Of a DNA stretch of 50,054 nt, positions 14,176-49,926 are shown in pieces. The DNA lies in assembly GCA_018818165.1 (NCBI GenBank), contig JAHISP010000091.1:1-50054 (forward strand), read 5' to 3'. Position numbers and translations under genes: made by a program. The notes beneath the pieces were generated by a model. That model was not told where the DNA came from. It did not search any database and worked only from the letters and a program-made list of their open reading frames with translations. Numbering within the stretch: position 1 is the stretch's first letter; each line of letters opens with the position of its first letter. This DNA is from Bacteroidota bacterium (GTDB taxonomy: Bacteria; Bacteroidota; Ignavibacteria; Ignavibacteriales; Melioribacteraceae).

Positions 14176-14298
14176 AGAGACGCAATTCAGTATTTATAAA
14201 TATTTTGATTGTACTATGGTCAATTTAAAAAATGCACAGAAGTGCTTAAAATACTAATGGATAAAGCAAAAAGCAGATTGCTACTATGGGGTTTATAA
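14176..14298 (+). pseudogene. C-terminal remnant of a second mlaD
   Basis: About 40 codons in one frame match the end of the intact MlaD at 16579-17316: the remnant reads FDCTMVNLKNAQKCLKILMD then KAKSRLLLWGL-stop, against FDSTLVNLRESSEGFKILMD then KAKSSWLLWGF-stop. It has no start, and the DNA upstream to 13979 carries no recognisable remainder. An earlier copy of the Mla operon, or a duplication of its tail, must have stood here and been deleted. Confidence 0.8.
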
Positions 14299-14750
14299 GT
14301 TCAACAATTGAAAATAAACCACTATGGACTACAAGTACGTAGTTTTAGTTACTAATACTTCGACAAGCTCAGTAACCGTGAAATTCGTTTTGAAAGACCA
14401 AATGTCAAACCACAAAAGCCAAATAATATCCAAATTTCAATTTCTAATATCCATACTTTGCGGTTTAAAAAGCCCAACTTTTTTGAAAAGTTGGGCTTTT
14501 TCAGTTTTCATTTGGTAAAAGTTGGATTTTGGTTATTCGTTTTTGCTATTTGTTTGAAATTTATCTTTTGTCGTTTGATATTTAGTATGACATTTTAGAA
14601 GATAAAGCGAGATGCTATTAAGTGCATATTTTAACTCATACCAAAACCAATAACACTATAAAGCTTTGCGAGTTCTCTAATAAACAATTTTTAATACTTT
14701 AAATTACTTTTGTCTCAACCTAAAGATGTAGTCCCTTTTTCATCCCTTTG
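14246..14750. repeat. Long direct repeat R1 (copy of the mlaD tail and trailer)
   Basis: This segment matches 17264-17590 (mlaD end, terminator, trailer) and then, without a break, 18217-18388. The join is at TATGACA near 14586; the roughly 630 bp lying between these two blocks in the downstream copy, including the hairpin array, are absent here. R1 and its partner flank the mlaE-F-D operon as direct repeats. Identity is high but with scattered substitutions and small indels, so the duplication is not recent. Confidence 0.85.
14467..14501. terminator. Bidirectional rho-independent terminator
   Basis: AAAAAGCCCAACTTTT-ttg-AAAAGTTGGGCTTTTT is a perfect 16-bp stem with a 3-nt loop, A-rich before and T-rich after, so it could stop transcription from either side. 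It is the R1 copy of the terminator behind mlaD and would now end the kaiC transcript. Confidence 0.85.
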
Positions 14751-14754
14751 GACT
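14728..14754 (+). promoter_or_regulatory. Shared upstream motif, copy 2 (before mlaE)
   Basis: GTAGTCCCTTTTTCATCC continues as CTTTGGACT, 70 bp before the mlaE ATG. It shares the core with copies at 12045, 18365 and 21246. This copy and copy 3 lie at the ends of the two long direct repeats, so their similarity is partly explained by duplication. Confidence 0.5.
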
Positions 14755-14823
14755 ATTGAATCAGTTCACTCTTCTGCATATCCTAGTATGTCAATTTAGA
14801 GTTAAACTTAAAGATGTAACTTT

Positions 14824-16578: not shown

Positions 16579-17316
16579 ATGAAAAAAAATACGACTAATA
16601 AAATAAGACTGGGAATATTTGTTTCTTTCGGAATAGCAATACTCATTGTCGGACTATATTTTATAGGTGAAAAACAGCAAATGTTTTCAGATACTTTCCA
16701 TATAAGTGGAATATTTAAAGATGTGGCTGATCTTCAAGTTGGTAGTAATGTTAGGTTCTTAGGTATAAATGTTGGCACTGTTGAAAATATTAATATTGTT
16801 AGTGATAGTTCAGTTAGTGTAGAAATACTTATTGATGAAGACACTCAAAAATATATTAAGAAGGATGCAATTGCTAGTATTGGTTCGGAAGGACTTATGG
16901 GAAATAAAATACTACTTATTAATACTGGCCCTGGCAGAGAAAAAGAGATGGAAAACAACGATATTATTAAAACAACTCCACCCATTAATATTGACGAAGT
17001 TCTATTATCATTAAAAACAACAATTGACAATACATCCAGTATAACTAAAGATTTAGCTTTAATTTCAAACAGAATACAATCAGGAAAAGGAACAATTGGC
17101 ATGCTTTTAATGGATGAATCTTTGGCACAAGATTTTAATACTGGCCTTCATAATCTAAGTGAAGGTTCAGCCGGATTAAAAAACCTAATGGAAGATGCCC
17201 AAATCAGTTTCGATAAAAATTTTGATAGTACTTTGGTTAATTTAAGAGAAAGCTCTGAAGGGTTTAAAATACTAATGGATAAAGCAAAAAGCAGTTGGTT
17301 GCTATGGGGTTTTTAA
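16579..17316 (+). CDS. mlaD: MlaD family MCE-domain protein
   Basis: A 245-residue MCE protein, the periplasmic lipid-binding part of the Mla-type transporter. A single N-terminal membrane anchor (about residues 10-30) is followed by the MCE domain (about 40-120; VADLQVGSNVRFLGINVGTV) and an amphipathic C-terminal region of about 110 residues. It completes the mlaE-mlaF-mlaD operon; no mlaB or mlaC is present, as is usual outside Proteobacteria. Its final 35 codons are duplicated as a remnant upstream of mlaE. Confidence 0.9.
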   Translation: MKKNTTNKIRLGIFVSFGIAILIVGLYFIGEKQQMFSDTFHISGIFKDVADLQVGSNVRFLGINVGTVENINIVSDSSVSVEILIDEDTQKYIKKDAIASIGSEGLMGNKILLINTGPGREKEMENNDIIKTTPPINIDEVLLSLKTTIDNTSSITKDLALISNRIQSGKGTIGMLLMDESLAQDFNTGLHNLSEGSAGLKNLMEDAQISFDKNFDSTLVNLRESSEGFKILMDKAKSSWLLWGF

Positions 17317-17590
17317 GTTCAACAATTGAAAATAAACCACTCTGGACTGCAAGTACATAGTTTTAGTTACGAATAAAATTCGTTTTGAATGACCAAATGT
17401 CAAACCACAAAAACCAAATAATATCCAAATTTCATTTTCTAATATCCAAACTTTGCGGTTTAAAAAGCCCAATTTTTTTGAAAAGTTGGGCTTTTTCAGT
17501 TTTCATTTGGTGAAAGTTGGGCTTTTTTTTAAAATTTGTTTTTGTTATTTGTTTGAAATTTATCTTTTGTCGTTTGATATTTATTATGAC
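17264..17590. repeat. Long direct repeat R2a (mlaD tail and trailer)
   Basis: This block is the partner of 14246-14590. It covers the last codons of mlaD, the terminator and about 90 bp of trailer. Homology to R1 stops at TATGACA (17584-17590) and resumes at 18217, so the DNA between is extra here or was lost upstream. Confidence 0.85.
17462..17496. terminator. Rho-independent terminator of the mla operon
   Basis: AAAAAGCCCAA pairs with TTGGGCTTTTT around a 13-nt loop, followed by T residues, 145 bp after the mlaD stop. Its upstream copy at 14467-14501 has an even longer stem. Confidence 0.85.
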
Positions 17591-17761
17591 AAATTTGTCA
17601 TTAGAAAACCATTTTATTTTCTTAACATATTGATATTAAATGTGTTACGAGGAAATATTTTATATAAAAGAAGTAAATTTTTCTAATATTGTTTTTAGTA
17701 ATTATTGTCCACTTTTTGTAAGTCTAACTTGTTGTATTAGAATAAGTTAACAGATATTTTT

Positions 17762-18219
17762 TTTCTAATGACAGATTTGGGATTATATTTTTGTCGAGCA
17801 ATCCAGATAAGGATTAAGTTATAATTGAGAGATTAAATTTGTATCAATCAATCCCGCTAGGGATTAAATTATAATAGAAAAACAAATTAGATTTTTAAAT
17901 CAATCCCTTAGGGATTGCATTTGGGTTTATTTGGACAAGAAAAAATTGAACCCGAAGACGGGTTCGTGTTTTGTGTTGTAAAAAAAGCTAATAAAATTAA
18001 ACTCCTAGCGGAGTTATTTGATATTAGAAACCATAATTTAGCCCAATCTCATAGATATATCATTAACAACATTATCTTTATAATTCAATCCCGATAGGGA
18101 TTAAATCTAAATAGATAAGAAATGCAACTTGTTGAATAATTCCAATAAGTATTGCATTATAATTGAATCATTATCCCCAATCTGTTGATAGGAATAAATT
18201 TCTAATGACGGATTTGGGA
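17762..18219. repeat. Array of nine hairpins spaced about 41-51 bp
   Basis: Short imperfect palindromes start at 17800, 17850, 17901, 17949, 18000, 18045, 18087, 18138 and 18179. The best stems are AATCCC-gcta-GGGATT, AACCCG-aaga-CGGGTT and AACTCC-tagc-GGAGTT: the stem bases change but still pair, so structure is conserved. Units 1, 6, 8 and 9 are decayed. Linkers differ and are AT-rich, without the fixed repeat sequence of a CRISPR. The array sits between direct repeats of a 21-bp sequence (17762-17782 and 18199-18219, one mismatch). No gene lies within it. Confidence 0.7.
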
Positions 18220-18388
18220 GTATGACATTTTGAGAAGGTAAAACGAGATGCAATTAAGTGGATATTTTAACTCCTACCAAGACCAATAACGTTATAAAGC
18301 TTTGCGAGTTCTCTAAAAATCATTTTTTAAATACTTTATATTACTTTTATCTCATCCTAAAGATGTAGTCCACTATTCATCCCTTTGC
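18217..18388. repeat. Long direct repeat R2b
   Basis: This block matches 14584-14750 and, with R2a, makes up the second copy of the long direct repeat around the Mla operon. It ends in the third copy of the shared upstream motif, in front of the DUF3494 gene. Confidence 0.8.
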
Positions 18389-18390
18389 TC
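18365..18390 (+). promoter_or_regulatory. Shared upstream motif, copy 3 (before DUF3494 gene)
   Basis: GTAGTCCACTATTCATCC continues as CTTTGCTC, 86 bp before the ATG. It keeps the TAGTCC and TTCATCC parts of the motif seen at 12045, 14728 and 21246 but differs in the T-run. Confidence 0.45.
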
Positions 18391-18475
18391 GATTTACATA
18401 ATGGTAACATTCATTTAACTTAATATCAGGTTCAAAAATAATAAATACTTCTCATTAATAGTAACAAGGAACAAC

Positions 18476-19567
18476 ATGCAATATAATACAATTCATATAG
18501 TCAAATATTTTAACCGATTTAATCACTTTTGGGGAATGATATTAATTCTCACATTTATATTACCGAGCATTGCATTTTCTCAATCATCACCCGAAACGGT
18601 AAATCTTGGAACTGCTGGTGATTTTGTGATTTTAGCAAAAACTGGAATATCATGTACTGGAAGCACTCAAATTACAGGAGATCTTGGTATTAGTCCAGCA
18701 GCAGCAACATACATTACTGGATTTGATCTAATAGCAGATGCTTCAACTACATTTTCACTTTCATCTTTAGTTACTGGAAAAGTATTTGCTGCCGATTTTA
18801 CTGAACCAACCCCAACAAAGTTAACTACAGCTATTGGTGATATGGAAACTGCATACACTAATGCAGCAGGACGATTGCTGCCCGATTTTACTGAACTATA
18901 CTCTGGAAACCTTACAGGGAAGACTCTTATACCGGGTCTTTATATGTGGACTACTACTGTTTTGGTAGGTGATGCTGGTGTAACTATTTCGGGTAGTGAA
19001 AACGACATCTGGATATTTCAGATAGCTCAGAATCTTGAAATAGCTAACGGTGCAATTGTTACTTTAGCTGGTGGTGCAAAGGCATCTAACATTTTCTGGC
19101 AAGTAGCTGGTCAAGCTACTCTTGGAACTACAGCAGCAATGAAGGGAATTATTTTATCCAAAACTGCTATAGCGATGTATACTGGTGCAACACTTAGCGG
19201 CAGAGCTTTAGCACAGACCGCCGTAACAATAGATGCAAATACTGTAATCGCACCATCAACTGTTACATCAATAGAAGAAAATACGAAGCTTCTAAACTTT
19301 TCTTTATCCCAAAACTATCCAAATCCTTTCAACCCATCAACTATGATTAAATATAGTATAATGAAAGCAACTCAAGTTTCATTAAAGGTTTATAATATTC
19401 TTGGAGTTGAGGTAGCAACACTTGTAAACGGTCATCAAAATGCAGGAAGTTACAGAGTGCAATTTAATACAAGCCAAGGAAAAGTGAATCTTGCAAGTGG
19501 TATATATTTTTACCGTTTGGAAGCAGAGTCTTATGTTGATACTAAAAAATTGATTCTTTTAAAATAG
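18476..19567 (+). CDS. DUF3494 (ice-binding-like) protein with type IX sorting tail
   Basis: A 363-residue secreted protein. Residues about 1-35 are a long signal peptide ending near IAFS. Residues about 40-262 are a DUF3494 domain, the fold of bacterial and fungal ice-binding proteins, beginning VNLGTAGDFVILAKTGISCT and including ITGDLGISP. The last 85 residues are a type IX secretion sorting domain (LSQNYPNPFNPST, then KVYNILGVEVATLVNG and GIYFYRLEA), so the protein should cross the outer membrane and be attached to the surface. Many DUF3494 proteins are adhesins or of unknown role, so ice binding is not certain. Confidence 0.88.
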   Translation: MQYNTIHIVKYFNRFNHFWGMILILTFILPSIAFSQSSPETVNLGTAGDFVILAKTGISCTGSTQITGDLGISPAAATYITGFDLIADASTTFSLSSLVTGKVFAADFTEPTPTKLTTAIGDMETAYTNAAGRLLPDFTELYSGNLTGKTLIPGLYMWTTTVLVGDAGVTISGSENDIWIFQIAQNLEIANGAIVTLAGGAKASNIFWQVAGQATLGTTAAMKGIILSKTAIAMYTGATLSGRALAQTAVTIDANTVIAPSTVTSIEENTKLLNFSLSQNYPNPFNPSTMIKYSIMKATQVSLKVYNILGVEVATLVNGHQNAGSYRVQFNTSQGKVNLASGIYFYRLEAESYVDTKKLILLK

Positions 19568-26960: not shown

Positions 26961-27047
26961 TCCATGCTGTCAATGACCATTGTGAAACTGTCTCAAAACT
27001 GTCATTCTGAACTTGGTTCAGAATCCCAAACTATGAATATGGAGTAA
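26868..27047 (+). pseudogene. Truncated rimO fragment at the cassette junction
   Basis: The ATG at 26868 opens the first 31 residues of RimO (MKQKIGIITMGCSKNAVDSE, then RLMAQLKINDF). It then runs into unrelated repeat DNA for 28 codons and stops at 27045. It retains only the first iron-sulfur cysteine (C12) and cannot be an active enzyme. The complete gene is at 31250-32533. It may still be transcribed, as the promoter region is duplicated too. Confidence 0.93.
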
Positions 27048-27115
27048 AAACAGATGCTGAAATAAATTCAGCATGGCAATTTTAAGCTGTCGAGGAACAT
27101 TATTCCTCGACAGAA
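26961..27115. repeat. Dispersed-repeat patch with hairpins at the left junction
   Basis: Directly after the rimO fragment comes CATGCTGTCAATGACCATT, half of a hairpin family seen again at 30188 and 40621. It is followed by TTCTGAAC/TTCAGAA and GATGCTGAA/TTCAGCAT hairpins, then the strong hairpin CTGTCGAGGAA-catta-TTCCTCGACAG (27087-27113). The latter lies just behind the minus-strand gene at 27131 and could be its terminator. Confidence 0.75.
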
Positions 27116-49450: not shown

Positions 49451-49619
49451 TATTCCAAAAATTTTTAAAAATAATCTTTACAAATACTTAATAGAATAAA
49501 AATCACCTTCCAACTATTTTCCTTTCTTCAGTATTGGGGCACCTCAACTTTTTAAGAACATTGTAGTAATTTAGCCTATTTCTAATACAGTTATACAAGT
49601 TTGTCAGTATCGGGGCTTT

Positions 49620-49667
49620 GCGATTCGGCGAATCGCACTACATTGTAGCTCGAATCGCTGATTCGAG
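49620..49667. repeat. Pair of adjacent perfect hairpins
   Basis: GCGATTC-GGC-GAATCGC (49620-49636) and CTCGAATC-GCT-GATTCGAG (49649-49667) are perfect stems with 3-nt loops, 12 bp apart and sharing the GAATCGC word. The surrounding 49451-49926 has no gene. This is probably a dispersed structural repeat. Confidence 0.75.
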
Positions 49668-49926
49668 AGCTTTGCCATTTACTAGTTTGCTATTCACACT
49701 ACAAAAATTAATATAACAAATATATCTTGTCTTTTTTATCAAAAAACCAATTGTCTTGGATTCTTTATTTGTCCATATTATTTTGAGATAATCTGTACTG
49801 AAATACTTTCAATATATATTTTTCTTTTATCTTAAATACACTTACAAATTAACTTGGGACACCCATTTTTTGAAATATCTTTGCAAATTAAACTAATTTC
49901 TGTCTTTTAAAAAATTGTGCGGAAAA

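Follow-up and report, generated by a model that had tools for sequence, protein, structure and literature searches.

What is the cluster of short hairpins that lies between a MlaD-like gene (16579-17316) and an ice-binding-like gene (18476-19567) on contig JAHISP010000091.1 of a Bacteroidota bacterium (Ignavibacteria; Melioribacteraceae; assembly GCA_018818165.1)? The stretch analyzed, referred to here as the window, comprises 50,054 nucleotides. The initial annotation proposed three identities for the cluster: a structured non-coding RNA (ncRNA), a protein-binding array, or an expanding repeat family. We favour the last two jointly, seeing in the hairpins the units that flank an IS200-like Y1 transposase and that together make up a dispersed repeat family. 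The same units flank the Y1 genes of one clade (clade A) in many genomes, including the source genome, and the array also occurs in partial copies that stand apart from a Y1 gene. Most probably, the array is a cluster of repetitive extragenic palindrome (REP)-like units that is orphaned and non-autonomous and belongs to an IS200-like Y1 (HuH) transposase system, and a stranded repeat of a mobile system is a more likely identity for it than a host RNA.

The array proper, to which no strand was assigned, spans 17782-18173, as delimited by a hairpin scan, the alignment of its copies and the model matches described below. Where nine hairpins 41-51 bp apart had been annotated, we found six clear ones between 17800 and 18102 (starts at 17800, 17850, 17901, 17948, 18000 and 18087) and a seventh, degenerate long hairpin at about 18125-18160. 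Start-to-start distances are 50, 51, 47, 52 and then 87 bp, that is, about 50 bp with one gap. Of the six, all but the first are perfect, with stems of 6-7 bp and the short loops of 3-4 nt originally described; hairpin 1 (17800-17815, no strand assigned) is decayed, with a 5-bp stem and a longer loop (AATCC-AGATAA-GGATT). Tagged units 2 (17848-17881, minus strand; TTTTCTATTATAATTT followed by AATCCC-TAGC-GGGATT), 5 (17984-18017, plus strand; AACTCC-TAGC-GGAGTT) and 6 (18085-18118, minus strand; TTATCTATTTAGATTT followed by AATCCC-TATC-GGGATT) are accompanied by unit 3 (17900-17932, minus strand; hairpin CAATCCC-TAA-GGGATTG at 17901-17917) and by hairpin 4 (17948-17965, no strand assigned; GAACCCG-AAGA-CGGGTTC), which is without a TA loop. 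When hairpins with a stem of at least 6 bp, at least three G/C and a loop of 3-5 nt were counted, the window held 24, versus 6.5 in shuffled sequence. Five of these fall in the array, within about 250 bp. No clusters were formed in the shuffles, nor in any of eight other 20-kb stretches of the source genome (L093-L100), and the idea that the units arise from random AT-rich sequence is thus not borne out.

Similar arrays stand beside transposase genes. In genome G001, of the same genus, two direct copies of an array flank a gene for a 150-aa protein matching PF01797 (E=1.3e-22), and their stems are of the same kinds as those of the window (AATCCC, AACTCC and GAATCCC). The source genome has nine PF01797 matches, and its genes of the G001 type on contigs C10 and C103 are flanked by similar arrays. 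Across related genomes, the 1.2-kb flanks of Y1 genes of the Y..Q..HH type (n=54, one locus counted twice) contain 355 short hairpins in 126 kb, or 2.82/kb versus 0.42/kb after shuffling; the corresponding values for acetyltransferase control genes (n=30) are 0.53/kb and 0.51/kb. Four or more hairpins were present at 42 of the 54 Y1 loci versus 2 of the 30 control loci. In a set of 80 named loci, the best 80 of at least 584 relatives, density was 5.14/kb within 700 bp and 0.94/kb beyond 1.5 kb, with 0.47/kb in shuffled sequence, and 73 loci had at least four hairpins; two of the 80 repeat unnamed loci (L215 is L188, a training locus, and L288 is L196). Since Y1 flanks hold more intergenic DNA than those of the controls, the count was also restricted to DNA outside open frames of 100 codons. 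The named loci then gave 8.88/kb near the gene and 2.69/kb far from it, 53 Y1 loci gave 6.87/kb, the 30 acetyltransferase loci 0.95/kb, and the eight source-genome stretches 0.28/kb.

The unit that recurs in these flanks consists of a 5' tag (about YTAYnAAnATn) whose distance from the loop is fixed, a C-rich stem and a TA(N)C loop, with a spacing of about 50 bp. In loop-anchored units from 58 of the 80 named loci, Y-T-A-Y occupies positions -18 to -15, A/T positions -13/-12 and A-T positions -10/-9, and the stem ends in YYCC just before the TA loop; the tetranucleotide GT[AG]G was not found at the hairpin foot of these units, Y-T-A-Y being the conserved tag. A TA loop is present in 282 of 551 near hairpins of the 80 loci, and 65% of 348 successive spacings of up to 150 bp lie within 44-56 bp. 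The TA-loop units are arranged in inverted symmetry around the Y1 gene with the tag side facing it, the nearest upstream unit being on the minus strand at 38 of 49 loci and the nearest downstream unit on the plus strand at 40 of 49. The asymmetric tagged unit is found on both strands of the window array.

A search for the hairpin family with covariation scoring had been suggested at the outset; the family proved to be dispersed, and its arms covary. At 47 sites picked by the tag and the 5' half alone, with nothing required of the 3' arm, the outer four stem positions were paired in 129 of 188 cases (68.6%) versus 40.1% with permuted partners, the highest value among 1000 permutations being 50.5%; these sites are related and come from collected loci, ten of them fetched by the model R1 described next, and the figure is therefore support rather than proof.

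Two covariance models were built, R1 from 14 units with four-nt loops beside Y1 genes of other genera and R2 from 41 units with three-nt loops. The top three R1 matches in the window were units 2 (E=1.3e-5), 6 (E=3.9e-5) and 5 (E=0.0049), after which came matches at E of about 1 (unit 3 scored E=1.9) that include sites outside the array. R2 ranked four array hairpins first, with E=0.0017 for unit 2, 0.0066 for unit 5, 0.018 for unit 3 and 0.075 for unit 6. In the source genome, R1 gave 17 matches at E<=1, of which 12 lie in copies of the block that contains the array and five beside Y1 genes, namely two at the C10 gene, one at the C103 gene and two in C90, a contig that opens with the start of a Y1 gene. 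Of 3968 first-look candidates, 150 were scored in this search, and such short-calibrated models yield rough E-values. At E<=0.1, R1 matched 49 of 97 genomes, with up to 40 matches in one. All 49 are among the 86 genomes with a PF01797 match (Fisher p=2.3e-4, for a test that used any PF01797 match and not clade A alone), and the unit was not found in any of the 11 related genomes without one; removal of the seven training genomes left 42 of 79 versus 0 of 11 (p=6.5e-4). A class-wide draw, partly of the same genomes, yielded R1 matches at E<=0.01 in 28 of 149. By locus, at E<=0.1, R1 marked 18 of 79 Y1 loci (eight of them training loci) and, with 124 matches, 42 of the 80 named loci, but none of the 30 acetyltransferase loci and none of the eight source-genome stretches; the only matches at that level in the control scan were at L084 and L088, both of which carry known block copies.

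The proteins linked to the arrays are Y1 HuH transposases that score above the cut-offs of PF01797 and NF033573. In a 69-row tree, all 16 placeable R1-marked rows fell in one 36-row clade and none among the 33 rows outside it (p=4.4e-6), 20 rows of the clade being unmarked. Residues Y115, Q119, H122 and H123 are invariant in 16 of 16 linked proteins, which had been picked for the Y---Q--HH type, and they agree with the Y---Q--HH signature published for subclass 1.2. Among solved transposases, a clade-A profile best matched 2xm3 (E=1.9e-12), with ISHp608 2a6m at E=3.6e-8. The class-2 family NF047646, with a cut-off of 80 bits, gave 23.6 bits for the C10 protein and 21.3 for that of C103, and G001 had no listed match. 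Two other candidate partners were rejected. The class-2 REP-associated tyrosine transposases (RAYTs) of the source genome have different flanking hairpins, as seen at four Y1 genes of the YI..NP type, and four class-2-like Y1 loci carried 1.44 hairpins per kb, also of other kinds. A second Y1 group (...KGESSHWINKN...) is associated with long CCACG-type hairpins with TAAA loops and includes no R1-marked tree row. As a separate observation, the Y1 proteins of L181 and L195 group together outside the 36-row clade, and the arrays at the L181 gene consist of CATAGCCC-TTC-GGGCTATG and GCGCC-TTT/GAA-GGCGC hairpins, another dialect.

Copies of the window array occur away from these genes. In the source genome, blastn identified them on contigs C8 (93% identity), C79 (90%), C1 (80%), C73 (88%), C40 (90%) and C64 (81%), on C19 in two pieces (90% and 88%) and, as a short copy, on C21 (78%); genome G002, of the same genus, has a copy at 93%. 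The copies are partial, and their start points, end points and surroundings differ. At a transporter locus, G002 has an array where the source genome has a class-2 Y1 gene, and no clean insertion junction was seen in this comparison.

Eleven rows were aligned. One is the window block, one comes from G002, and the remaining nine are pieces drawn from eight further loci of the source genome. Pairwise mismatch was 5.2% in stems (64/1241), 18.2% in spacers (713/3925) and 22.8% in loops (92/403). Variable columns numbered nine of 64 in stems and 95 of 247 in spacers (p=1.7e-4); G/C columns (7/36 versus 27/50) and A/T columns (2/28 versus 67/196), taken separately, showed the same difference. Inspection of the 11 rows revealed no two-sided change in any homologous hairpin. 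The compensatory changes of the initial annotation were drawn from different hairpins of one array, and that comparison is therefore no evidence of compensation in itself. Its conclusion fares better than its argument: the conservation of stems among copies, together with the covariation of arms across the family, supports selection on structure.

An alternative account of the array lies in its flanks. The initial annotation was right that a block is missing from an upstream copy of the same trailer, yet the block is larger than it stated, extending over 627 bp from 17592 to 18218 (no strand assigned). When 14260-14800 was compared with 17271-18420 by blastn, two pieces met at 14584-14592, the block-free site (no strand assigned), where AGTATGACA occurs once; the block is edged by an 8/9 near-duplicate, ATTATGACA at 17583-17591 and AGTATGACA at 18219-18227. 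The 21-bp direct repeat reported around the array is present at 17762-17782 and 18199-18219 with one mismatch. It is, however, the right terminal repeat of a resident insertion sequence (IS), TTTCTAATGACnGATTTGGGA, and belongs to two miniature elements, neither with an assigned strand. One, at 17592-17781, has inverted ends near 17592-17608 and 17762-17781 and has copies of 78-80% identity by blastn on C58, C35, C9 and C68. The other, at 18174-18218, is a minimal palindrome made of the left end CCCCAATCTGTTGATAGGAATAAA and the right end TTTCTAATGACGGATTTGGG, and a similar solitary palindrome is found on C34 (L033). Left ends of the resident IS lie near the edges of contigs C3, C46 and C75 and right ends near those of C18, C20, C22 and C64, where the assembly breaks. 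The C-terminal 37 residues of the flank-donating IS had no Pfam or NCBIfam match at E<=1.

Several observations concern the surroundings of the block. The trailer copies are at 14246-14750 and 17273-18380, and the 3' end of the MlaD-like gene, with terminator and trailer, recurs upstream of an MlaE-like gene, so that the operon is bracketed by trailer copies. The multicopy IS seen at the contig edges named above and in L030-L034, with the ends CCCAAATCCGTC... and ...GACCGATTTGGG, has miniature derivatives of about 220 bp and about 45 bp, several of which are adjoined by TTAA. The only other hairpin cluster in the window, at 27004-27113, comprises three hairpins with stems of at least 8 bp that are unlike the array units. 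Several unrelated perfect hairpins lie close together at 673-1160 (for example, TCCCCTCTCGAGAGGGGA at 724 and TCCCTCTCTTTTTAAGAGAGGGA at 963). A hairpin pair at 49619-49668, TGCGATTCGGCGAATCGCA and CTCGAATCGCTGATTCGAG, resembles sequence adjoining the C73 and C79 array copies and thus appears to be another dispersed repeat.

It is conceivable that the array spread only as a passenger of this conventional IS, two IS-derived miniatures having bracketed it and carried it in composite transposition, with the link to Y1 being ancestral and having no part in the present distribution. The IS ends in the flanking repeats, the near-duplicate bounding the 627-bp block and the inclusion of the left miniature element in the C8 and C79 copies all speak for this, and for the last step in the window it overlaps with the Y1-system explanation. 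As the whole account it seems to us unlikely, roughly one chance among several. The stretches read around the copies at C64, C21 and G002 are without IS ends on one or both sides, and arrays adjoin Y1 genes in other genomes, at loci that were not searched for these IS ends. Far less probable is a structured ncRNA or untranslated-region element of the neighbouring genes that is selected as RNA. The plus strand does fold better than its shuffles (-93.5 kcal/mol, z -5.86) and the stems are conserved, but a comparable z-score is expected from any strong set of hairpins. No Rfam family reached its gathering score in the window (0 matches), and promoter-like sites are at chance level (11 versus 9.4). 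The copies are differently truncated and stand in different surroundings, and the occurrence of the asymmetric unit on both strands of one array led us to reject a one-strand ncRNA.

Almost no credence can be given to the idea that the hairpins arose by chance in AT-rich DNA or that they form a set of intrinsic terminators. A loose terminator pattern is matched by three hairpins of the array, in two cases on both strands, with six sites in the region versus 0.6 in shuffled sequence; yet a stronger T-tailed terminator is located elsewhere, at 17462-17496, and five perfect hairpins in about 250 bp stand against 6.5 per 50 kb in shuffles. This explanation is already contradicted by the hairpin counts, the dispersed conserved copies and the conservation of stems. 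A clustered regularly interspaced short palindromic repeat (CRISPR) locus was rejected, as it had been in the initial annotation: the repeat units are only 63-79% alike and the spacers are conserved between copies.

Transposases like the solved ones matched above bind single-stranded hairpins and nick beside them. By analogy with IS608 TnpA and TnpA-REP, the units of the array would fold as single-stranded hairpins during replication, and the Y1 protein would bind stem and tag, nick near the tag and join strands, through which units could be spread or exchanged in trans. Arrays may then grow by tandem duplication and subsequently decay. The window array would have ended up between a pair of miniature IS elements, and the block of 627 bp may have entered the trailer, or left its copy, as one piece.

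Several points weigh against the reading of the array as a stranded part of a Y1 system, and against spread by the transposase, which we infer from the analogy above. No movement was observed. The array copies end at different points and have no clean unit-level target sites, so that decay, recombination and IS-mediated transfer are indistinguishable from Y1-mediated spread. Hairpin 4, in the middle of the array, was matched by neither R1 nor R2, and 37 of the 86 genomes with PF01797 had no R1 match. Support for the 36-row clade was 90/97, below the customary 95. The genome searches took only the best first-look candidates (about 72 per genome), which makes their counts lower bounds, and the genomes are related, which makes the p-values optimistic. 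The training hairpins were chosen for perfect pairing, and seven of 62 candidate units were dropped by eye. PMC6006769 describes the subclass as generally without typical IS200 end structures, and the link between Y1 and array therefore rests on the present analysis.

The named records, as the best 80 of at least 584, come mostly from Bacteroidota and Ignavibacteria; the labels Desulfonema magnum, Cloacimonadota, Neomarinimicrobiota, Methylococcaceae and Thalassobius occur on one record each. In a speculation to which we grant slightly less than even chances, arrays that repeat about every 50 bp (near five turns of DNA) and bear a TAY-type tag would form a separate REP superfamily of an IS200-type Y1 lineage with the subclass 1.2 signature. 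Independent of class-2 RAYTs and widespread among Bacteroidota and related groups, this superfamily would now and then have reached other phyla, and its replicating unit would be the array, not the single hairpin or inverted pair. 

Three further observations concern individual loci. L284 (Desulfonema magnum) has twelve R1 matches spaced 49-50 bp apart at 1641-2217 beside a clade-A-like Y1 gene on a chromosome outside Bacteroidota, which looks like horizontal transfer of the whole system. At L089 (contig C52 of G001), a 19-bp palindrome (TCTGTGAGACTCTTACAGA and variants) is located in or beside several array hairpins, at about 9190, 10250, 10320 and 10690, as if these were insertion targets of another small hairpin element. 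On contig C42 of G091 (L066 and L075) and contig C38 of G062 (L065), elements of about 340 bp with ends close to GTCGCATAGGCGTCAAC and GTTGACGCCTATGCGAC enclose ATCCC-type hairpins and are possible miniature elements built from array units.

The analysis offers a likely identity for conspicuous intergenic hairpin clusters in genomes of Bacteroidota and Ignavibacteria, and a role for a Y1 transposase subclass described as generally without end structures. A further suggestion is that IS200-type transposases gave rise to REP-like systems on more than one occasion. Tests of how such repeats spread gain concrete substrates, in the form of the tag with its hairpin, as well as proteins to work with. 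The regular spacing of nearly 50 bp is a constraint on any mechanism.

How does the array compare with known systems? The elements at 17592-17781 and 18174-18218 resemble miniature inverted-repeat transposable elements (MITEs) in carrying terminal inverted repeats of a resident IS; they account for the flanking direct repeat but not for the hairpins between them. With IS200/IS605 elements (IS608, ISDra2), the system shares a Y1 HuH transposase with hairpins next to its gene. IS608 has one subterminal hairpin per end, whereas here there are several hairpins per side, in arrays on both sides for which no sharp left or right ends were found, and in the source genome more array copies were seen apart from the gene than clade-A gene loci. 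The likeness to TnpA Y1 subclass 1.2 (class 1), as set out in PMC6006769, extends to the Y---Q--HH signature, the short protein with a conserved C-terminal extension, the few copies per genome and the predominance of Bacteroidota, here among the loci kept. Unlike that description, one clade is regularly flanked here by hairpin arrays. These differ from the typical single end hairpin, and whether they count as an IS200 end structure is a matter of definition. In the literature searched, with subscription papers and supplements outside it, no earlier description of hairpin arrays beside subclass 1.2 genes was found; the automatic REP search of PMC6006769 used GT[AG]G-tagged structures, with 2.6 and 3 inspected manually.

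REPs, REPINs (REP doublets forming hairpins) and bacterial interspersed mosaic elements (BIMEs) with their TnpA-REP (RAYT) partners, including REPtrons, likewise comprise short intergenic hairpins. These carry an asymmetric 5' tag, occur both scattered and in clusters, are placed in inverted orientation about a Y1 HuH gene and differ in their stems from lineage to lineage. There, the protein has the class-2 motif and GT[AG]G stands at the hairpin foot; here, the protein is of the Y---Q--HH type (subclass 1.2, class 1), the tag, about YTAYnAAnATn, keeps a constant distance to the loop, most stems measure 5-7 bp, loops are TA(N)C and the period is about 50 bp. The tag differs by sequence from GTAG and also from the CGTC tag given in PMC3733652. 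In the broad sense the family is REP-like: a Y1 gene is flanked by its units, which also occur scattered in several copies, some of them orphans. Because the GTAG tag and class-2 membership were both looked for without success, we file the window feature as REP-like with another tag and class, although in its working it would resemble a REPtron, and its best reading is an orphan array of a REP-like system that differs from the known ones in tag, period and transposase class.
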